A stretch of DNA of 32,497 bases from Spirochaetaceae bacterium (GCA_031256905.1 JAIRPY010000006.1:1-32497); one strand, 5' to 3'; positions 6,629 to 18,206 are shown, counted from the first letter of the stretch. A program made the numbers and translations. Notes: generated from the letters alone by a model not told the origin.

Positions 6629-8485
6629 TTAAAACTCCTCGGTTTCCGCCGGGGGGTTTTCTTCTATAATAAGATCCTCCGGGATGTTGCCTTCGAGGAC
6701 GCCCCCCCGGCGGGAAAGGTCTCCGCCGGGGGCTACGTACACGCCTCCTCCGGCGGCCGCTTCGTTTCCCGAAATAAGGCCTCCTTCAGGTTTAAGAAGA
6801 TTCGAATTCCACATATTAAATACCCCCTGGGGCCCCACATGAAGGCCTCCGCCTTTTTCCGCCCGGTTTCCCCGGAAAACCGCGCCGGTCATGGTGACAA
6901 TAGTATAGGCCCGAATATCAAAGCCTCCCCCTTCTTTGGCGGAGCGGTTCCCGGATACAGCTCCCCCGGAAATCAAAACGTTGCAGTACCCCCCGGCATA
7001 CACGCCCCCTCCGGTATTCCGGGCGATGTTATCCCGAATTTCCCCGCCGAAGATCTCAAAGGTGCCATTCCCGACATACACGCCCCCGCCAGACCCCCCG
7101 GCGGTATTGCCGATTATCCCCCCGGTCCCCCTAAGGGTAAAGGCCGAATCCGCCGCGCTGACCCCGCCGCCGTAGAGGCCCGCGTTTTCCGCAATCTCCC
7201 CGCCCTGAAGGTCCAGGGCCCCGGAGGCCACCGAAATCCCGCCGCCCCGGCCGTTCCCGGAAAGAACATTGCCTTTGATAAGCCCGCCTTTCATCGCTAA
7301 AGAACTGTTTTCCGCGCCGATGCCCCCGCCGGAGAGCGCAGTATTGCCGGAAATTTCGGCCTCCCCGGTTAGTTCGAGAGTTCCATTCAGAATGAAGAGG
7401 CCCCCCCCGGTTTCCTTGGCCTGATTGTGATGAATCACCCCCCCGGAAATGGCAATATCCAAGGGCCTATCGCTATCCGTGGCGTTAATGCAAAGCCCCC
7501 CGCCGTACTCCGCCCGATTCCGGGCAATCTCCCCGCCGGAAATGGCGCACGCGCTTTGCAAAGCAAAAAGGCCGCCGCCGGAGTTATCCGCCAGGTTGTC
7601 GGTAATTTTGCCGCCGGTCATAACAAAATCGCTCAGAAACAAGGCCAGCCCCCCGGCATTATAGGTCACCCGGTTGTCTTGAATCGTGCCGTTTTTCAAA
7701 GTAAAAAGACTGGAAACGATGTAAGCCCCCCCGCCGACGTTGCTGTTGATAGTCCCGCCGGTCATTTCCAGGGATCCGTCTTTGAGAAAAATCCCGCCGC
7801 CATTATCGTCCATCGCGGTATTGCCGGTAATTTCGCCGTCTATAATCTTGGCTACGCAGTTCCGGAGGTACAATCCGCCCCCGGCCTCCCCGATGGAACC
7901 TTCCGCAAAATTGTCCCCGATCCGCCCGCCGGCCAAAGTCACCCGGGCCGAAACAGCATAAACCCCGCCGCCCTGGATGCCTCGGTTTCCCTCCACTTCC
8001 GCGCCGGGACCCAGGGTAATCGACCCGGTCTCCGCATAAATTCCGCCCCCATTCCCCGGGGTCTCCAGGCCCCTAAAGCCCCCGGTAAGGCCGATATGTT
8101 CAAAGCGGATCGCCGCTCTTCCTTCTATTTTGATAACCCGCTTCCCGGTTCCCGCCGCCCCCAGTTCCCCCTGGTTTAGGCCCCGGATAAGAATTTCGGT
8201 CCGCCCGGAATCTTTAATAAAAAATACGCTCTCCGGGTCTCGGGCAAAGGCCGTCTTTTGTTCGCTGGCCTCCGTAAGAATCCCCACGACCGTAATGCGC
8301 TTAATCTTATTCCGCCGGGCCATGTCCACCGCCTTTCCCAAGGTCTGAAAAGGCGTCTCCCGGGACAGCCCATCGTTTTTATCGTTCCCCCGGGCCTCCA
8401 CGTAATACGTGCCGGTTTCGGCATTTCCTCCGGCGTACAGCCCCGGCAGAGCCAGGAGACTCAAGATTAGCCAGATATATTTCAT
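6629..8485 (-). CDS. Secreted/surface right-handed parallel beta-helix (pectin-lyase-fold-like) repeat protein
   Basis: Start MKYIWLILSLLALPGLYAGGNAETGTYYVEARGNDKNDGLSRETPFQTLGKAV. Many GGG-[VIL]-Y/GNTA/SGG repeats. AGGAG SD 5 nt upstream. Confidence 0.85.
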   Translation of the reverse strand: MKYIWLILSLLALPGLYAGGNAETGTYYVEARGNDKNDGLSRETPFQTLGKAVDMARRNKIKRITVVGILTEASEQKTAFARDPESVFFIKDSGRTEILIRGLNQGELGAAGTGKRVIKIEGRAAIRFEHIGLTGGFRGLETPGNGGGIYAETGSITLGPGAEVEGNRGIQGGGVYAVSARVTLAGGRIGDNFAEGSIGEAGGGLYLRNCVAKIIDGEITGNTAMDDNGGGIFLKDGSLEMTGGTINSNVGGGAYIVSSLFTLKNGTIQDNRVTYNAGGLALFLSDFVMTGGKITDNLADNSGGGLFALQSACAISGGEIARNRAEYGGGLCINATDSDRPLDIAISGGVIHHNQAKETGGGLFILNGTLELTGEAEISGNTALSGGGIGAENSSLAMKGGLIKGNVLSGNGRGGGISVASGALDLQGGEIAENAGLYGGGVSAADSAFTLRGTGGIIGNTAGGSGGGVYVGNGTFEIFGGEIRDNIARNTGGGVYAGGYCNVLISGGAVSGNRSAKEGGGFDIRAYTIVTMTGAVFRGNRAEKGGGLHVGPQGVFNMWNSNLLKPEGGLISGNEAAAGGGVYVAPGGDLSRRGGVLEGNIPEDLIIEENPPAETEEF

Positions 8486-8603
8486 TTTTTCTCCTAAATA
8501 TTTCTTTTTTTTAGAAAAATACCATATTCCTCCCGCCCCGGCAAGCCTCGCCGGGTTGACAAAACCCCCGGATTTGTATAGCTTTCTGCCCAGGAGGAAT
8601 TCA

Positions 8604-9575
8604 TTGAAAACAAAAAGCATCGCCGGCCTCGCGGCGGCCCTGACAATCCTAGCCGCCGCCCCAGGATACGCCAACGGCTCCAGCCAAAATAAAGGCCCGG
8701 CCCGAATCCGAATGGCCACCGGAGGCAATACCGGAACATACTACGCCTACGGCTCCGCGGTAGGACAAATCTTAACGGATAAAACCAAAACTCCCATTAC
8801 CGTCCAATCTACCGGAGCATCCAAAGCAAACATTCAGCTCATCGCGGCCGGAGAAGTGGAACTTGCGATTGTGCAAAACGACGTAATGGATTACGCCTAT
8901 CGGGGAGTAGAGCTTTTTAACGGCGAGAAAATAAGCAACTTTTCGGCCGTCGCCGGGCTGTACGCCGAAGTCTGTCAGATTATCGTGAATGCCGCTTCCG
9001 GCATCGTCAGCGTCGCAGACCTTAAAGGCAAAAACGTATCGGTTGGGGATGCCGGAAGCGGCGTGGAATTCAACGCCCGGCAGATTCTGGAAGCCTACGG
9101 CATCACCTTTACCGACATCGGCAAACAAAACCTGAGCTTCGGGGCCTCCGCGGACGCCCTCCGGGATAACAAAATCGACGCATTTTTCTGCGTAGCCGGC
9201 GCGCCTACCACCGCGGTACTGGACCTCGCCACGAATAAAGACATCGCGGTTCTCTCTATCGACCGGGACCGGGCCGACCAGATTATAAAAAAATATCCCT
9301 TTTATACCGACTTTTCTATCCCGGCCGGGACTTATCGGGGAGTAACCCAGGAGGTCCCGACCTTAGCGGTAAAAGCTACCCTCATTGCCAGCAACAAACT
9401 CCCGGAAGATACGGTATATCAGCTTGTAAAGGCCCTCTTCGAGCATAAAGGCGAAATCGCCCAAGCCCACGCCAAAGGCGCGGAACTGGCTCCAACCTAC
9501 GCCGTGGGCGGAATTTCCGTACCCTTTCACAAAGGCGCGGAACGGTATCTAAAAGAAATCAAAGCCCTCAAATAA
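8604..9575 (+). CDS. TRAP transporter solute-binding protein, TAXI family
   Basis: TTG start after AGGAGG (LKTKSIAGLAAALTILAAAPGYANG signal peptide). IRMATGGNTGTYYAYGSAVGQIL...STGASKANIQLIAAGEVELAIVQNDV is characteristic of TAXI. Confidence 0.93.
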   Translation: MKTKSIAGLAAALTILAAAPGYANGSSQNKGPARIRMATGGNTGTYYAYGSAVGQILTDKTKTPITVQSTGASKANIQLIAAGEVELAIVQNDVMDYAYRGVELFNGEKISNFSAVAGLYAEVCQIIVNAASGIVSVADLKGKNVSVGDAGSGVEFNARQILEAYGITFTDIGKQNLSFGASADALRDNKIDAFFCVAGAPTTAVLDLATNKDIAVLSIDRDRADQIIKKYPFYTDFSIPAGTYRGVTQEVPTLAVKATLIASNKLPEDTVYQLVKALFEHKGEIAQAHAKGAELAPTYAVGGISVPFHKGAERYLKEIKALK

Positions 9576-10033
9576 TGCTCCGGCTCTTCCTTGCCCTGGC
9601 GGTTTTGGCTTTGACTTATCAGTTCGTCCCCCGGGGGCTTGCCATCGGGGATGCGGATTCCGGAAAAGTCTACCTCCGCCGGCCCCTCCAGAAGGGCGAA
9701 ACCTTTGCCATCGAATTCATCCATTCGGTAAATAACAGCCCGGTCCGGGAAACCTTCACGGCAGACCAGGGAAGGATTCGCCCGGTGTCCAGCCGGTTCG
9801 CGAGTTTCGGCGCCGGCATCCAAAGCGACCTCGCCGAAGGGCAGACCTTATCCCGAGAAGGCGGCTTTCTTGTCATCTCGGGATTCCAAACCTCTTACAA
9901 GGAACTGCTCTATATCGTAGGCACTGTTTCGGACCACATCCTGTACCTGAGGGATGAACGAATCAGTCTCCGGGATCTCTGCGGCCGAAACGCCCACATC
10001 CGGATTTGGACCCATAAAGGAATTTTTTTATGA
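9575..10033 (+). CDS. DUF1850-like protein, TRAP-associated
   Basis: 1-bp overlap with TAXI gene. FAIEFIHSVNNSPVRETF...; operon position typical of DUF1850. Confidence 0.8.
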   Translation: MLRLFLALAVLALTYQFVPRGLAIGDADSGKVYLRRPLQKGETFAIEFIHSVNNSPVRETFTADQGRIRPVSSRFASFGAGIQSDLAEGQTLSREGGFLVISGFQTSYKELLYIVGTVSDHILYLRDERISLRDLCGRNAHIRIWTHKGIFL

Positions 10034-11955
10034 AAACAGAAAAAATGCAGACAGAAAAAATGCAGGAAGAAACCCTCCAAACCGAAGACCTGATCGCCCA
10101 ATTCGACCGGGAGTCGGCGGTTCGGCGGTTTTCCGGAATTTCCGAGCATATTATAAAAGGCTTGCTCCTGCTTTTTACCGCCTATGTGTTTTGGGTGACT
10201 CTTTTTGCGGCCCTCCCGGAACAGATCCGCCGATGCGCGTTTCTGGGGATCCTGGTATTCATCGGGTATATCCTGTACCCTCTGCGGAAGGGCCTGACAA
10301 AACGAAAAAATTATGTGCCCTGGTACGATATTCTGCTGGGAGCCTTGGGAGCGGCTTCTTTTTTTTATTTCGTAGCGAATTTTGAAGCGATTATCAACCG
10401 GGCGGTGATGCTCAAGCCCTGGGACATTGGAATGGCGGTCCTGGGAATGATCCTGCTGGGGGAACTCTGCCGCCGGGTCGTCGGGATTCCGATTCTCGTG
10501 GTGGGGACTGGGTTTATTACCTATGCGGTTCTTTCGGGCTATTCCCTCCGCCGGATTGTTCACCAGCTTTTCTACACCACCGACGGGATCATCGGCACGC
10601 CTATCGGGGTATGTTCTACTTTTATCGTCCTGTTTATCTTTTTGGCGTCCTTTTTGGAGAAATCCGGCATTGCGTCCTTTTTCATAGACCTGGCGAATTC
10701 CGCGGCCGGCTTCGCCTCCGGGGGACCCGCTAAGGTCGCGGTCATCGCCAGCGCATTGAGCGGGATGTATTCCGGGAGTTCCGTAGCGAATACCGTCGGA
10801 TCCGGAAGCGTCACCATTCCGGTCATGAAAAAAACCGGCTATAAACCGGAATTCGCCGCGGCGGTAGAAGCTTCCGCGTCTACCGGAGGACAGATCATGC
10901 CTCCGATTATGGGCGCCGCGGCCTTTCTCATGGCGGAACTTACCGGTATTGCCTATTCGGTTATCGCGGTATCCGCAATTCTGCCGGCCGGGTTGTATTT
11001 CACCGGCATTTTCCTGATGATTCACTTCGAGGCGAAAAAACTGGGCCTTAAAGGTCTGCCCAAGGAATCGATTCCGCCTTTCGGGAAACTTTTTCTGGCA
11101 AAAGGCTATCTTCTTCTGCCGATTGCAGTCCTGGTTTTTTTCATGACCCGGGGCAATACTCCGGCGGCGGCGGCGTGTTACGCGATTCTGACCGCGATTA
11201 TCGTAAGTATGTTCCGGAAAGAGACCCGATTCACCCCAAAAACGTTTATCGAAGCCCTCACAAACGGCGCGAAAAACACCATCGGAGTGGCCCTGGCCTG
11301 CGCGGTGGCCGGAGTGGTGGTGGGCATCGTTTCTCTGACCGGTTTGGGACAGATTTTAATTGGAATGCTCCTTTCGGTAGCTCAAAGCAATCTTTTGCTT
11401 GCCCTGTTTCTAACGATGATTGCCTGCCTCATCCTCGGCATGGGTATTCCGACTACCGCGAATTACGTCATCATGGCGACCATTACCGCGCCGATAGTAA
11501 TCGGCATGGGCGTGCCGATTCTGGCGGCCCATATGTTTGTCTTTTATTTTGGAATTATGGCTGACATTACCCCGCCGGTGGCCCTGGCCGCGTATGCCGG
11601 TTCGGCTATTGCCAAATCGAATCCCATCAAAACCGGCATTACCGCTACCCGCCTAGCGATTACGGCCTTTATCATCCCCTATATTTTTGTATACAGTCCA
11701 TCCATGTTATTCATTGACACGACGCCCCTCGATGTGGTGCGGATCGTGATTACCTCCTGTATCGGGATGTTTGGACTTGCAATAGGCCTCGAGGGATATA
11801 TGCTGAGAAAACTGAAGTTCTTCGAACGGATTCCCGCGATAGCCAGCGGCTTACTGCTGATTCATCCAGGGCTTGGGACCGATATTATCGGCTTTGGGCT
11901 GGTGAGTATTGTGGTGATCCTGCAAATTCTCGGCCGGCCCAGAATCCCGGTATAG
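10030..11955 (+). CDS. TRAP transporter fused permease (DctQM-type)
   Basis: 641 aa, multiple TM segments. SGMYSGSSVANTVGSGSVTIPVMKKTGYKPEFAAAVEASASTGGQIMPPIMGAAAFLMAE is diagnostic. 4-bp overlap with upstream gene. Confidence 0.95.
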   Translation: MKTEKMQTEKMQEETLQTEDLIAQFDRESAVRRFSGISEHIIKGLLLLFTAYVFWVTLFAALPEQIRRCAFLGILVFIGYILYPLRKGLTKRKNYVPWYDILLGALGAASFFYFVANFEAIINRAVMLKPWDIGMAVLGMILLGELCRRVVGIPILVVGTGFITYAVLSGYSLRRIVHQLFYTTDGIIGTPIGVCSTFIVLFIFLASFLEKSGIASFFIDLANSAAGFASGGPAKVAVIASALSGMYSGSSVANTVGSGSVTIPVMKKTGYKPEFAAAVEASASTGGQIMPPIMGAAAFLMAELTGIAYSVIAVSAILPAGLYFTGIFLMIHFEAKKLGLKGLPKESIPPFGKLFLAKGYLLLPIAVLVFFMTRGNTPAAAACYAILTAIIVSMFRKETRFTPKTFIEALTNGAKNTIGVALACAVAGVVVGIVSLTGLGQILIGMLLSVAQSNLLLALFLTMIACLILGMGIPTTANYVIMATITAPIVIGMGVPILAAHMFVFYFGIMADITPPVALAAYAGSAIAKSNPIKTGITATRLAITAFIIPYIFVYSPSMLFIDTTPLDVVRIVITSCIGMFGLAIGLEGYMLRKLKFFERIPAIASGLLLIHPGLGTDIIGFGLVSIVVILQILGRPRIPV

Positions 11956-11960
11956 GTCCG

Positions 11961-11989
11961 TTGACAACCTGCTTTTCTTATAGTATGCT
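11961..11989 (+). promoter_or_regulatory. Predicted promoter of the MBL-GrpE-like-Hsp70 module (TTGACA-N17-TATGCT), 9 nt before ATG
   Basis: TTGACA 11961-11966, TATGCT 11984-11989, ATG 11999. No SD between. Confidence 0.6.
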
Positions 11990-11998
11990 GGCAAAATC

Positions 11999-13162
11999 AT
12001 GAAAAGGCGGGGAAAAAAATCTTATCTGCGTTTTGTCGCCCTGGGAGGCGGGCAGGAAGTCGGAGCCAGCTGTTACTTTCTTCAAATTAATGACGCCTAT
12101 ATTCTGCTGGATTGCGGAAAATCCCCAAATGGGGCCTACTTTCCAGATTTTTCGACTATTTTAAAACCCCCTTTTTTAGAATCCCTTAATCAGATCACCC
12201 AAATTTTTATATCCCACAGTCATTTTGATCACATCGGGGCCTTTCGGTATCTTTCGTCCCAATGCCGGAACGCCGGGGTTTACGCGACGCCGATAACTAA
12301 AGCGTTGTTATTTCACATTCTCTGGAATCTCAATGAATGGCAGACTTCCCCGCCGGAGGACCGCCGGGAGGAAGAAGAAATCCGCTCGGAGGCCGCGATT
12401 CGGTCTATTATTGAAATCGGCTACTGCCAGGAAATTTTTCTGCCCGAGTACACAGTTACGTTTTTTGAGGCCGGGCATATTCCGGGCGCGGCCATGGTGT
12501 ACCTTCAAACCGAGGATAGACGGATTCTCTATACCGGGGATTTCTCCTGCCATGCCGGGGTTTTGACCTCTTCGTACATTCTGCCCGATTCGATACAATT
12601 TGATACGATGATTATCTGCGGCCTGCACGCCAAACATCCTCATCTTCGGCGGGGGCGGAATCCCCAGTCCCAGTTTGCCTTTGTGAAGGGCGCGTTGGAA
12701 CGGGGCTGTTCGGTGCTTTTAGAGACCGTCCAGCTCACCAAAGGCTGGGAAGTCCTGCACAGCCTGAACAAAGCGATGGAGAATCGCAGGCTCCCCCGGA
12801 TTCCGGTATACATCGATCAGAAGTTGAGTCTCCTGGCGGAAGAAATGGAACGAATGCACATACCGGTACGCCGGGCTTGGAATTACGTGGGGATTCCGCC
12901 CCGGGGAGAGCAGGCCGCGCTTATCGGGCGGTTTGCTCCGGCCCATTTTCTGCCGGTGAAGGTTGATTTTTCTTTGCATCCGACGTATCGTGAATTGGCG
13001 GATTTTATTGAAAAATATCATCCGAAAACGGTGGTGCTGGTGCATACCGGCTCGGCGGAACCCCGGATTGAAGCGAATTGTCTTGAAATAGAACTTATGA
13101 CCCGGACGTCCTGGACAGGTCATTTTATTTACGCCGAAACCGGCGAAATATATTCTCTTTAA
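11999..13162 (+). CDS. MBL-fold metallohydrolase, beta-CASP-like
   Basis: HSHFDHIGA, EAGHIPGAAM, YTGDFS, PVYIDQKLSLLAEEM and VVLVHTGSAEP motifs. Confidence 0.85.
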   Translation: MKRRGKKSYLRFVALGGGQEVGASCYFLQINDAYILLDCGKSPNGAYFPDFSTILKPPFLESLNQITQIFISHSHFDHIGAFRYLSSQCRNAGVYATPITKALLFHILWNLNEWQTSPPEDRREEEEIRSEAAIRSIIEIGYCQEIFLPEYTVTFFEAGHIPGAAMVYLQTEDRRILYTGDFSCHAGVLTSSYILPDSIQFDTMIICGLHAKHPHLRRGRNPQSQFAFVKGALERGCSVLLETVQLTKGWEVLHSLNKAMENRRLPRIPVYIDQKLSLLAEEMERMHIPVRRAWNYVGIPPRGEQAALIGRFAPAHFLPVKVDFSLHPTYRELADFIEKYHPKTVVLVHTGSAEPRIEANCLEIELMTRTSWTGHFIYAETGEIYSL

Positions 13163-13184
13163 AAAGGAGTTGGAACAGGGCAGT

Positions 13185-14213
13185 ATGATAGCAAAAGAGG
13201 CGCTAGACAAAATCGATGAAGTCATCGAGATGCGGAGAAAAGTAGGCATGGATAAAATTTGCGTGGATGAAAATCGGGTAATCAGCGAATTCTGTCTGGA
13301 TCCCGACTTGGATCCCAAAGAAGCCGCCCGCCGGCTCAACGCAAAAAACAAGAAAAAAGACGACCCCGACTACACCCTGGATCGGGTGATCAAAATTCTG
13401 CGGATCCTGAAATTATCCAACCGCACCGAACGTCCGCAGATTATAAGAGACGCCCTGAAAATGGCGCAATGCGTTCGCGACTGCTTCGACGGGGATATTA
13501 TGGCCTATAAACGCTTTCGGGAGTACGAAAAAAAATCCGAAGAAGCCCTCACGAACGACATTCACTGCTCCCGGATGAGGTGCGTCCTCATCGCTCTGTT
13601 CACCACCATTCCCGAATTTCAAAAACTGCGTTTCGCCGGCGACATCTTCTTCCGGGGAAGCGCGAGATCCCGAGCCTGCCTCAACGACATCCTGCATCAG
13701 GCCGTTAAAACCATGAGCAAAAATAAACAGCTCGACGAAGAAGATCTCCCGGATCAAAAGGACGATTCAATCCGCCGACTCAACGATATGCTCGAAGAAA
13801 CCCAGAACGAATTCGAACTCAAACTTGAGGAAAGCAAAAATCAGGAAATTACCGGCTTCTTCTCCGCCCTGAATTCCGAAAAATACGGCTGTATTCTGGA
13901 CGAACTTTTTTCCGCAAAAGCCGGCCTCGAATCCCTGCGGAAACAAAACTACGAACTCCCCATCGAGATAAACGGCCTCACCATTCTAGTCCGGAAACTC
14001 ATCCAATTCGTAAAAGACAGCGGCATCAATCCCATAATCCGCACCGGCGAAACCCTAACCGTAAAAAGTCAGGACATCGAAAATTACAACTATCTCGGCT
14101 CTCCCTTCGAACACGAAGGAGAAGAAAAACAAGTAATCGTAGTTTCCCCAGGTTGGGTATACAAAAAAAAAGATACCCAAATATCCAGACCAACCATCAA
14201 AGAAATTCTTTAA
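13185..14213 (+). CDS. Uncharacterised protein with GrpE-like C-terminal region (putative nucleotide-exchange factor for adjacent Hsp70)
   Basis: Helical N-terminus. C-terminal ...DSIRRLNDMLEETQNEFELKLEESK... then ...EHEGEEKQVIVVSPGWVYKKKDTQISRPTIKEIL resembles the GrpE head (V..V..GY......RPA.V.V). Alternative TTG start at 13170. Family assignment by eye only. Confidence 0.55.
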   Translation: MIAKEALDKIDEVIEMRRKVGMDKICVDENRVISEFCLDPDLDPKEAARRLNAKNKKKDDPDYTLDRVIKILRILKLSNRTERPQIIRDALKMAQCVRDCFDGDIMAYKRFREYEKKSEEALTNDIHCSRMRCVLIALFTTIPEFQKLRFAGDIFFRGSARSRACLNDILHQAVKTMSKNKQLDEEDLPDQKDDSIRRLNDMLEETQNEFELKLEESKNQEITGFFSALNSEKYGCILDELFSAKAGLESLRKQNYELPIEINGLTILVRKLIQFVKDSGINPIIRTGETLTVKSQDIENYNYLGSPFEHEGEEKQVIVVSPGWVYKKKDTQISRPTIKEIL

Positions 14214-14270
14214 AGTTTTCTCTTTAAAAAAGTTTTAAAAATTTTGTAAAATTTAGAAAAGGAAAAAAAT

Positions 14271-16997
14271 ATGACCGAAGATCACGATGAGCTATGCGTC
14301 GGCATCGATTTAGGCACTACGAATTCGGTACTGGCTATAACCAACGTCACCCCCGGAGGAACGATAGTCAGTAAAGTCGTAGACATAGCCCGATACGAAG
14401 ATATTTATTCCAGCGCGTCCGCGGATGACATCAAGGGAAGTACCACAAAAAAACCTCTGCTTCCATCCTGCGTGTATTACCGGCAAAATCGCAACGGAGA
14501 ACTCAAACCCTTAGTCGGAGACCTGGCGAAACGGCTCTACAGTATGCGCCCCCAGCTTGTGGCAAAATCCATCAAAAGCCAAATGGGACAAACCGGGGTT
14601 TCCGGTCTCAGCCCGGACGTGCCGGACAAAACGCCGGAAGCGGTATCCGCGCAGATTCTCAAACATCTGTTAAGCGAAGTAAAGCGAGTCTACCACAAAG
14701 AACTTACCGACGCGATCATCACCGTGCCGGCGAGTTTCGACAGCGCCATGTGCCAAGCAACCCTTAAAGCCGCGGAAATCGCCGGAATAAAGATGACTAA
14801 CCGGGACGGCACAAAACGGCAAATTCTCCTTTCCGAACCCAACGCGGTAATGTACGATCTGCTCAACCAAATTCAAAAAGGAGAAATCCCCGCCCATATT
14901 CTGGACACAAGCAAAAAGCAAAAAGTGATGGTGTTCGATATAGGAGGCGGAACCCTGGACATCACCCTCCATGAGATAAGCAGAAACGAAACAAATAAAG
15001 AATTAATGCAGATGGACGAAATCGCCACAAACCGTTACACCCGGCTTGGAGGAGATGATTTCGATCTGCTCATCGCTCAAGCGATGTTTGAGCGGTATCG
15101 CAAACAATACCGCAATACCCAAGAAATCGTGCAGAAAATCGACGCCGGCCGAGATGAAGTTATAGCCCAGCTCATCGTGTACGCGGAGAACATGAAAATC
15201 GATATTAACGAACAAGTTTCCAATACCCAAGACGATAACTGGGGAACCGACATCCTCAGTTCCACCGGCGGACGAATGCACAACGGATACGCGTATGACG
15301 ACGAATTCACCAAAGCCGAATTCGAACAGATCATCGCGCCTTTGCTGGGCCCCGGACTAAACTACGACGATTATAAACAACTCGACAAAATGCAGGATAA
15401 CGGACAGATTAAAACGATTATCTATCCTGTTTTAGACGTCCTCCAGAAAGCCGCAAAAAAATTGCGCTTGGAAGACGTCCAAGTCGATGCAGTGGTGTTA
15501 AACGGAGGTATGTCAAAGCTGTATCTGATACAGGAACGGCTTGAACAGTTTTTTGGATTTAAGCCTATTCTCGCGCTGGATCCGGATCAAGCAGTCGCCC
15601 GGGGCGCGGCGGTGTACCATTACTACTTGCACAAGTACGGCGAAACCGACGCCGCTCTGCCGGTAAATCCTCGGAGCGCGGAAACAGAAGACAGTATTAC
15701 TGTTCAGGATGCCCCAGGCATTCAGCTTCGGAAAACGGTTCTGAACGAACCCCTGTACCTCGGCATGAGCGGCGGCGCGCACGAACTTTTGGTCGACGCG
15801 GGAGCGGATCTGCCTTTCACGTCAGATCGTAAAGACGGATTTTCCATCGCCCCGGGACAGACGAAAATTAAAATTCCCATTCGGAAAAAAGAGGAAAAAG
15901 ATACCTATACCACCATCGCTTCGGGAGAAATATCCTTTGAAAAAACCTACCAAGACGCCGCGGCCGTATCAATTCGCTTTAGTTTAAGCCGGAATAAGAT
16001 ACTTTCCTTTGAAGCGTACACAGAACGTGAAAAGGGATCCGTTATTATTTCTATCGATAAAAGCGGCTATACCGCCGCGCGTTCCGCAGTGATACCGAAA
16101 CAGGGAACTCCGCTGGTTCCGAAAAATGAAATTTCCCGTCTCTCTGATCTGTGTAATCAGCGGCGGAAAAATTTCAACAAAGGAAGCAATAAAAATACGA
16201 ATAAAACCATCAAATTATGCATCAACATGATTTCTCACTGCGGAAACCCTGAAGAATTTGCGATTCCGATTATCCTAGAATTACGGAAACAAATACAACA
16301 GCAAAAACGGGACGAATTTTTTATTCAACGGCTTTTAGTGCTGTCCCGAAAACTCGCGCTCCGATGGAACCAAAACCATCGGGAAACCTTGGTGGACTGT
16401 TGCATCGATATTGTTTCTGTCGTTAAACACGCCATCATCGGCGTAACCGGAGAACGAGTCGCCACCATAAACGAAGCCATCCGCAACATCGGACTCCTCG
16501 GCGCCCCGGCCCAGAAAGACTCTCTCCTCGCATACCACAATAGAGATAAACGGTACGAAGAAGCGTTAATCTACGCCCATGCGGTTTCTCAAACCGAAAT
16601 CCCCTGGATTTTTAAACAGATGCAGGAAACCGCCTCCGGCGCAAGCCTCTGGGGAATCGGCGTAGCCCTACAGCGCAACGGAAAAGTCCCCCAATCCTTC
16701 AACCCCAGAAAACCCGCAGAAAGCCTCATAACCTTGCTGGAATCCTATACTTTAAACGCTAATAACCAATCCGCCGCCCTCCTTTCCTTAGGACTGATCT
16801 GCGATCAGCGCGGCGCCGCCATTGATCCGGTCGATAAAATTTTCGCCCAAAGTATATACGAACGCATCGAGCGCATCCTGGAATATTACGAACCCACCAA
16901 ACAGTTCCGCATCGCGCTCCAGCTCATCAACGGCGGTCTTTTAAGCGAAGAAGATGAAGCCTTTCTGCTCCAAAAAATTACCGAACTGGAAGAATGA
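14271..16997 (+). CDS. Divergent Hsp70/DnaK-like protein with long non-canonical C-terminal extension
   Basis: CVGIDLGTTNSVLAI, SEPNAVMYDL, VMVFDIGGGTLDITL and VVLNGGMSKLYLIQ actin-ATPase motifs. About 350 C-terminal residues are helical and unlike the DnaK lid. SD AAAAGGA. Confidence 0.9.
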   Translation: MTEDHDELCVGIDLGTTNSVLAITNVTPGGTIVSKVVDIARYEDIYSSASADDIKGSTTKKPLLPSCVYYRQNRNGELKPLVGDLAKRLYSMRPQLVAKSIKSQMGQTGVSGLSPDVPDKTPEAVSAQILKHLLSEVKRVYHKELTDAIITVPASFDSAMCQATLKAAEIAGIKMTNRDGTKRQILLSEPNAVMYDLLNQIQKGEIPAHILDTSKKQKVMVFDIGGGTLDITLHEISRNETNKELMQMDEIATNRYTRLGGDDFDLLIAQAMFERYRKQYRNTQEIVQKIDAGRDEVIAQLIVYAENMKIDINEQVSNTQDDNWGTDILSSTGGRMHNGYAYDDEFTKAEFEQIIAPLLGPGLNYDDYKQLDKMQDNGQIKTIIYPVLDVLQKAAKKLRLEDVQVDAVVLNGGMSKLYLIQERLEQFFGFKPILALDPDQAVARGAAVYHYYLHKYGETDAALPVNPRSAETEDSITVQDAPGIQLRKTVLNEPLYLGMSGGAHELLVDAGADLPFTSDRKDGFSIAPGQTKIKIPIRKKEEKDTYTTIASGEISFEKTYQDAAAVSIRFSLSRNKILSFEAYTEREKGSVIISIDKSGYTAARSAVIPKQGTPLVPKNEISRLSDLCNQRRKNFNKGSNKNTNKTIKLCINMISHCGNPEEFAIPIILELRKQIQQQKRDEFFIQRLLVLSRKLALRWNQNHRETLVDCCIDIVSVVKHAIIGVTGERVATINEAIRNIGLLGAPAQKDSLLAYHNRDKRYEEALIYAHAVSQTEIPWIFKQMQETASGASLWGIGVALQRNGKVPQSFNPRKPAESLITLLESYTLNANNQSAALLSLGLICDQRGAAIDPVDKIFAQSIYERIERILEYYEPTKQFRIALQLINGGLLSEEDEAFLLQKITELEE

Positions 16998-17011
16998 GAC
17001 TACCACGCCCA

Positions 17012-17046
17012 GCGGGGAAAGACGGTTTTCATTCGTCTAACCCCGC
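17012..17046. terminator. Imperfect hairpin between convergent genes, possible terminator
   Basis: GCGGGG AA AGACG GTTTTCATT CGTCT AA CCCCGC. No long T-run. Confidence 0.4.
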
Positions 17047-17048
17047 CG

Positions 17049-18206
17049 TTAAATATGATCCGGGGATTCAAAAAAAAGCGGCAGAGGCAGTAAACTGCGG
17101 AGAAAAAGATTTTCCCGAATCTCCGGAAATACAGACTCTCCCGAAAAAGAACACAAAAACTGCAGAGCTTCATTCGCAGACATAACCCGGGAAACATTTT
17201 TTCTTTCGATTTTCTCCTCCGCGAAAGCTCTGCCATTCTGCACGGACAACTCAAGCAGAGGACCTCCTTCAATCTGAAACGAAAAAGAACCATCCTGCAG
17301 GGTCCGCATCTGGGATTTAAGCCGCAGAAAAGGGGTCAAAAATGTCGGATAATCAAAAACCGCAAAATGGTAAGCCGGACTTATTCGGTACGTTTCGGCG
17401 AAACAAGAAAGGCCCGCAATTTTTTCGGTTTCATGAGAAGCGACGGAAACCTGCGCCTCGGTTTCATGCCGATCCCGTAAAAAAAGCCCGATCACATCCG
17501 GCAAGCGGGAGTAATCCCTAAGGTTTATCTCGGAAATATTACCCCGGCAGGCGACCATATAGCCCTGAAACTCTCCGCCCCGGAGAACTCCCAAGACCTG
17601 CGCTTTCCATGACGAAAGTATGTCGAAAAGCCGTTCCCGGCTCCGCCGAATCCTGATACTTTTAGCCTCGTGCAGAGCCTGAATCTTATCCAGCAATACC
17701 TCATCCCCAGAGTCAAGTCTCTGGAGCGAAAAATCTCCGCCCCAGTCTTCTTTTCGATGCCCCAGGGAATGCCGGATATTGGCTTCGCCGCAGGTAAACG
17801 TATACCCGCTCCCAGCCGGAGTAAAGCCAAAGTATTCATACCGCTGACGTTGCCCTCCAAGACAACTGAAGGCCACCCGGTCCCGGCGCATATCCGCCAA
17901 AGCCAGGTTCATCAGGGTTTTCATGTGATTCCGGGACCGGCAATAGGGATGCACCGATACCATCCCGATGCCCCGCCCCGGCGCCGAGCCTTCAGGAAAA
18001 TCCAGTACCAGAGGATAAGCCCCAACCGCCGCTTTTATCCGCCCATCCTCCCGAGCGATGTAATGCGTTGCATCCATAAAATACTCGGGTTTGTAGAGTT
18101 TCGGCAGGAGCGATGGAAAATCCGTCGGACCGTGGGCCTGACTGAACACATAATTCGCAAAATCTATCAATTCATCATAATCTTCCTGCCCGGCAATACA
18201 ATACAT
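17049..18206 (-). CDS. GNAT N-acetyltransferase, Eis-like
   Basis: N-terminal GNAT region with GIGMVSVHPYCRSRNHMKTLMNLAL; C-terminal SCP2-like region. SD AGGAGGG. Confidence 0.75.
   Translation of the reverse strand: MYCIAGQEDYDELIDFANYVFSQAHGPTDFPSLLPKLYKPEYFMDATHYIAREDGRIKAAVGAYPLVLDFPEGSAPGRGIGMVSVHPYCRSRNHMKTLMNLALADMRRDRVAFSCLGGQRQRYEYFGFTPAGSGYTFTCGEANIRHSLGHRKEDWGGDFSLQRLDSGDEVLLDKIQALHEAKSIRIRRSRERLFDILSSWKAQVLGVLRGGEFQGYMVACRGNISEINLRDYSRLPDVIGLFLRDRHETEAQVSVASHETEKIAGLSCFAETYRISPAYHFAVFDYPTFLTPFLRLKSQMRTLQDGSFSFQIEGGPLLELSVQNGRAFAEEKIERKNVSRVMSANEALQFLCSFSGESVFPEIRENLFLRSLLPLPLFFESPDHI

Follow-up and report, generated by a model that had tools for sequence, protein, structure and literature searches.

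In a stretch of 32,497 nucleotides from a Spirochaetaceae bacterium (GCA_031256905.1 JAIRPY010000006.1:1-32497; the whole of it called the window here), positions 11999 to 16997 carry three genes that form one co-inherited unit, in which an RNA-type hydrolase is joined to a divergent chaperone. The first open reading frame, ORF1 (11999..13162; this and all window coordinates below are on the plus strand), encodes a 387-amino-acid beta-CASP metallo-beta-lactamase (MBL) hydrolase of the RNA type, similar to CPSF73 and aCPSF1. ORF2 (13170..14213, 347 amino acids, TTG start) encodes a GrpE-like protein that carries an additional helical domain at its N-terminus, and ORF3 (14271..16997, 908 amino acids) an Hsp70-type chaperone with a solenoid tail. 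The coordinates, with gaps of 7 bp between ORF1 and ORF2 and 57 bp between ORF2 and ORF3, bear out an earlier note on this DNA that had described three co-directional, closely spaced genes. The same note was right that no DnaJ-like gene is present, there being no J-domain gene in the module. A search of positions 11500-17500 against Rfam returned no elements.

The unity of the three genes was established across genomes. When GTDB species genomes were scanned using ORF2 as the query, 61 loci were obtained, spanning Spirochaetaceae, Lachnospiraceae, Selenomonadales, Synergistaceae, Riflebacteria and other Firmicutes; the unit thus occurs in widely differing bacteria of gut and rumen. ORF1-ORF2-ORF3 order and strand are identical in 54 of these, the remaining 7 being cut by contig ends, and loci added later show the same fixed order; the neighbourhood check suggested by the earlier note thus gave no case of the genes being found apart. 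Trees of ORF1, ORF2 and ORF3 are congruent (patristic r 0.955-0.966, Mantel p 0.001), with 23 splits common to all three. Among 189 Selenomonadales genomes, an ORF2 profile is matched in 46, one built on the beta domain and tail of the Hsp70 in 47, and both in 44, the exceptions being mostly fragmentary matches. In genome G573, ORF1 and ORF2 are fused into one 794-amino-acid frame (L081:9560-11944, minus strand). There is one module copy per genome in the 12 genomes checked, and no fourth gene recurs broadly beside the unit among the neighbours across loci. The gene tatC recurs upstream mainly in Selenomonadales loci, and mainly in these loci too the downstream gene encodes what we take, reading the sequences by eye, to be a TSUP-type transporter.

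ORF1 matches the Pfam families Lactamase_B (PF00753, 1.3e-14) and RMMBL (PF07521, 9e-6), as well as PF16661, and the NCBIfam models for aCPSF1 (3.8e-35) and Cas14 (6e-25). When its family profile is run against the PDB, CPSF73 (2i7t, 6e-43), Integrator 11 and archaeal CPSF structures are matched. The MBL metal motifs are present, with D38, H73, H75, D77, H78, H160 and D181 invariant across the family alignment: motif 2, SHSHFDHIG (12212..12238), provides the metal ligands H73, H75, D77 and H78, and motifs 3 (H160, GHIPGAAM) and 4 (D181, YTGDFS), both ligands being invariant in alignment A3, occupy 12473..12547. The motif A position is Cys207 (12617..12619), invariant in A3, where alignment to 2i7t places an acidic residue in CPSF73. 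Motifs B (H327) and C (H349) of the beta-CASP region lie at 12971..13045; both histidines are invariant across the family, and a histidine at C is found in RNA-type members. The initial reading of a nuclease-type hydrolase can be sharpened to the RNA-nuclease type on the strength of the retained motif B and C histidines and the CPSF73 profile match. Membership of the beta-CASP fold rests on the match to whole profiles, and catalysis may differ from that of the relatives. In eukaryotes and archaea, CPSF73 and aCPSF1 have a central part in forming the 3' ends of RNA.

The chaperone character of ORF3 is evident from its Pfam match to HSP70 (6.4e-38) and from its domain order. The nucleotide-binding domain (residues 8-457, 14292..15641) retains intact ATPase motifs (GIDLGTTNS, K102, E189, GGGTLD and GGDDFD), and a beta substrate-binding-like domain (residues 490-595, 15738..16055) was delimited by AlphaFold2 and Foldseek; having an actin-like ATPase that bears the phosphate motifs, together with the beta domain for substrate, ORF3 shows the features of an Hsp70. 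DnaK and other Hsp70 structures match these first two domains in Foldseek (best E 3e-28). The retention of the ATPase motifs, already seen in the single sequence, extends to the family, in which the signature motifs are nearly invariant. It had likewise been claimed that the last ~350 amino acids do not resemble a DnaK lid; AlphaFold2 indeed predicts for residues 617-906 (16119..16988) an alpha-helical tail of ~15 helices in a HEAT/ARM-like arrangement, which replaces the lid and has no sequence relative in the PDB and no consistent Pfam family. Against the full-length prok_dnaK model ORF3 scores 123 bits, far below the cut-off of 822.55, and it is not an ordinary DnaK with a helical lid. One locus, L021, has further Hsp70 genes: directly upstream of the module (446-2776) lies an Hsp70 with a PIN_4 nuclease-type domain inside its ATPase domain (PF13638 1.5e-15, PF00012 1e-74), and after the module come a protein with, by eye, a GrpE-like C-terminal motif (7959-8753) and a second Hsp70 (8753-10240).

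For ORF2, AlphaFold2 (mean predicted local distance difference test, pLDDT, 83) predicts a helical domain at the N-terminus, followed by a long helix, two further helices and, last, a beta domain of modest size; the elements after the first have the topology of GrpE. The all-helical N-terminal domain (residues 9-185, 13194..13724) is a separate gene in some Selenomonadales, and in L032, L084 and L095 an additional gene corresponding to this domain alone lies between ORF1 and ORF2. The GrpE-like part (13755..14204), which is the most conserved, is predicted to comprise helices at 196-233 (the long one), 237-258 and 265-283 and a beta domain at 286-345, with a pLDDT by block of 62-93. The window ORF2 has no significant match in Pfam, and the ORF2 profile found nothing among PDB sequences. 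A divergent homologue, at L080, has a match to PF01025 (1.1e-5; 25.6 bits against a cut-off of 25.8) that takes in its residues 212-365 and nearly the whole profile, and the same family is weakly matched by 2 of 40 ORF2 family members (best 0.00097). As this match and the predicted topology are not joined by significance in direct hhalign or Foldseek comparison, ORF2 is called only a distant, and probable, relative of GrpE. The name "GrpE-like" in the earlier note is therefore upheld by the L080 homologue and the predicted topology, but not by the window sequence alone, which gives neither Pfam nor hhalign significance.

The distribution of the module is patchy. It is convincing in 1 of the 393 Spirochaetota genomes drawn and is present in 3 of 6 genomes of its own genus, in 7 of 250 from Lachnospiraceae and in 1 of 87 from the family of G402. 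The window flanks, a TRAP operon and a FemAB-metG block, are located elsewhere in congeners, and in two of these, G841 and G843, the module has flanks other than those of the window and a downstream neighbour common to both. Most of the module has a GC content of about 0.46-0.48, and the remainder of the window one of 0.49-0.59. The patchy presence, the differing flanks, the GC content and the lack of viral or plasmid matches would fit horizontal spread of a chromosomal unit; carriage as phage or plasmid cargo was considered and rejected, since searches of viral contigs, phages and plasmids yielded no relatives. The TAXI-type TRAP transporter genes directly preceding the module (8409-11955; NMT1_3 binding protein, DctM) were also considered as partners in one operon, which was rejected because in congeners these genes lie away from the module or occur in genomes in which no module was found. 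In two congeners, genes downstream of the module encode proteins with long GDGSDGSG-type repeats (L136:5876-7795 and L137:10054-12054). Far upstream, at 855-1006 and 1524-1716, the window contains short, evenly spaced exact repeats, CGGGCTTTTGCGGCTT and TGCGCCGGCTTCCGGG, with 3 copies each, overlapping predicted ORFs.

The claim that the genes have their own promoter holds in part. A sequence scan places a candidate element, TTGACA-17-TATGCT (11961..11989), directly 5' of the module, but in the window such matches are no commoner than in shuffled sequence, and no matching element was found in G841. In G843, TTGACA-17-TATACT stands at the matching spot 5' of the module, beside a different upstream gene and different upstream DNA. 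Because the position is kept although the upstream DNA differs, the G843 element is likely to be real.

A few loci have type III CRISPR (clustered regularly interspaced short palindromic repeats) parts close to the unit. In a scan of 111 neighbour proteins, mostly from Lachnospiraceae loci, a few were such parts; arrays, Cas6, CARF/Csx1 or Cas10 lie beside the unit in three genera, Butyricicoccus, Phascolarctobacterium and Lachnoanaerobaculum. In a metagenome-assembled Butyricicoccus genome (L033), a seven-repeat array ends ~730 bp upstream of ORF1, and two more repeats begin ~140 bp past the end of ORF3; also encoded on this contig are Cas6, CARF, Csm2, Csm4, Cas10a and a second Cas10. In Phascolarctobacterium (L056) a three-repeat array directly precedes ORF1, with CARF and Csx1-like CARF-HEPN genes downstream. 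A solitary Cas6 gene lies directly upstream of the module in Lachnoanaerobaculum orale (L016), and in L. saburreum (L019) there are two repeats followed by a run of N. A further candidate, at L036, was rejected: its repeats have CRISPR-like spacing but form a ~70-bp tandem repeat. L033 and L152/L153 (contig 55 of G402) can be described as a large type III super-locus around the module, with two Cas10 genes and several short arrays, in which vWA, PIN/kinase-like and phosphatase-like genes were assigned by eye. No CRISPR parts were seen at the window or in the Selenomonadales loci inspected for arrays, the Selenomonadales neighbour proteins lying outside the PADLOC scan. Judged by the sparsity of arrays in genomes, their presence within ~1 kb in three genera looks to be more than chance.

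In light of these observations, there is about an even chance that the module is a dedicated machine in which an Hsp70 and an exchange factor of its own govern the activity or the targeting of a beta-CASP ribonuclease. A functioning complex is favoured by the strictness of the gene linkage, by the fusion, by metal and ATPase residues that are intact and by the domains that have been added, and gating of the nuclease by the chaperone is plausible. In such a machine the Hsp70, with its ATPase and beta domain and with the solenoid tail as a docking arm, would hold the nuclease, or a complex of nuclease with RNA or ribosome. ORF2, probably dimeric via its long helix, would reset the Hsp70, and its extra N-terminal domain might bring the nuclease or nucleic acid to the chaperone. 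A signal of stress or invasion, such as competition for the Hsp70 from unfolded protein or the engagement of one of the cell's own J-domain proteins, could then shift the Hsp70 cycle, and the shifted cycle would release or switch on RNA cleavage. The purpose of such control would probably be stress or anti-phage conflict. More tentatively, and with some doubt, the unit may represent an effector of bacterial immunity or stress that belongs to a new class, whose Hsp70/exchange-factor cycle would sense invasion or a proteotoxic state and license a CPSF73-like ribonuclease, sometimes together with type III CRISPR signalling.

Several points weigh against the dedicated machine. The acidic residue of motif A is missing, the invariant Cys207 aligning with a Glu of CPSF73, and ORF1 catalysis may therefore be altered or lost. 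Comparison of ORF2 with local GrpEs by hhalign was not significant, leaving no direct profile link to canonical GrpE, and Foldseek with the whole of ORF2 gave nothing significant, its third match being a weak one to GrpEL1 (9blt_B, probability 0.47, E 0.56). The ORF1-ORF2 fusion occurs in a single genome only. CRISPR parts were seen in three genera only, with none seen at the window or at most other loci, and in many Selenomonadales the unit is stably placed beside tatC, more in the manner of a housekeeping accessory. The patchiness and the CRISPR neighbours thus lean to conflict, whereas the tatC site leans to housekeeping. Of the earlier note's proposals, the undescribed three-gene module stands, having withstood the refuting conditions that the note itself had set, nuclease gating is a plausible hypothesis, and the defence role is favoured only circumstantially, by the CRISPR parts of the three genera.

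A housekeeping role in RNA quality control is the first alternative, and an unlikely one: the solenoid-tailed Hsp70 would dock on ribosomes or stalled RNA-protein complexes and deliver the beta-CASP enzyme to mRNA or rRNA, in a degradosome-like and not a defensive capacity. The CPSF73/aCPSF1-type enzyme, the intact Hsp70 ATPase motifs, the single copy in the 12 checked genomes and the stable tatC neighbourhood in many Selenomonadales agree with this, and DnaK associates with the E. coli degradosome; but a very patchy presence would be odd for a housekeeping function, and type III CRISPR neighbours occur in three genera. It is improbable that Hsp70 and ORF2 are a private folding pair which only folds or assembles the hydrolase, the role of the latter being unrelated to RNA. 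Strict linkage and the altered motif A would suit such a pair, and MBL enzymes act on many substrates; yet the invariant motif B and C histidines are typical of RNA-type beta-CASP nucleases, and a private Hsp70 with a solenoid of 290 residues seems excessive for folding one small enzyme. Least probable, and by a very low estimate, is that the unit belongs to, or is a recent accessory of, type III CRISPR or another named conflict system (CoCoNuT, GAP1-N2 GTPase). In favour of this, a few loci have arrays, Cas6, CARF/Csx1 and a pair of Cas10 genes near the unit, and Hsp70-GrpE pairs are reported from GAP1-N2 loci (PMC7159879) and Hsp70 with HEAT from CoCoNuTs (PMC11090510); but the conserved core contains no cas, GTPase or McrB/C gene, the three genes recur alone, and CRISPR parts are found at three genera only.

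Were the dedicated machine confirmed, the state of a chaperone would be wired directly to bacterial RNA cleavage by a three-gene unit spreading between phyla, and a simple system would be at hand for asking whether Hsp70 acts as switch and sensor beyond its function as a folding aid. The module also adds a bacterial family near CPSF73 and aCPSF1, as well as a variant of GrpE that carries an additional domain.

Comparison with known systems begins with the canonical dnaK-grpE-dnaJ set, which has the same logic of Hsp70 plus exchange factor. In the module's own genome the canonical grpE, dnaK and dnaJ are clustered on contig C98, apart from the module, and it is only in the module that a solenoid tail, an additional ORF2 domain and a nuclease as partner occur. 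An ordinary dnaK/grpE paralogue, which the earlier note had named as a possible undoing of its proposal, was rejected on the grounds of that separate set and of the ORF3 score far below the DnaK cut-off. ORF1 has the same fold as Cas14 of type VII CRISPR, aCPSF1 and CPSF73, the closest profiles being aCPSF1 and Cas14 and the closest PDB entry CPSF73, but it is shorter, scores far below the family cut-offs (87.6 bits against 800 for the Cas14 model), has the motif A Cys and has no Cas partners at the window. No Cas5 or Cas7 was present among the window neighbours scanned, and no such gene recurs beside the unit. GAP1-N2 conflict systems of Firmicutes and Actinobacteria have a dedicated Hsp70 with its own GrpE (PMC7159879), but their core is a GTPase with FNIII/DnaJ proteins and the module has no GTPase; the publication describing them (PMC7159879) nowhere uses the word "lactamase". 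The type III CoCoNuT proteins CnuD and CnuCD combine Hsp70 nucleotide- and substrate-binding domains with HEAT-like helices (PMC11090510), a likeness that extends to the linkage of a helical-repeat Hsp70 to RNases in a predicted RNA-targeting system. CoCoNuTs, however, have an McrB-type GTPase and CnuC/McrC as their basis, and for CnuD the prediction is of very inefficient ATP hydrolysis (PMC11090510), whereas the module has intact ATPase motifs, a GrpE-like partner, a beta-CASP enzyme and no GTPase. No McrB-like or TRAFAC GTPase was found among the window neighbours scanned, nor is there a fourth conserved gene in the relatives, where not every neighbour was named. PADLOC defence families gave nothing for ORF1 or ORF2 and for ORF3 a weak match only, in the phosphate-binding region. 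Searches of open-licence literature found no description of a trio of Hsp70, GrpE and metallo-beta-lactamase, a prior description elsewhere being possible, and the papers found that combine beta-CASP and Hsp70 are, by title and abstract, unrelated. Because each named system compared fails in a defining feature, the three-gene system, assembled from known component folds, appears to be undescribed and to stand outside the named systems.

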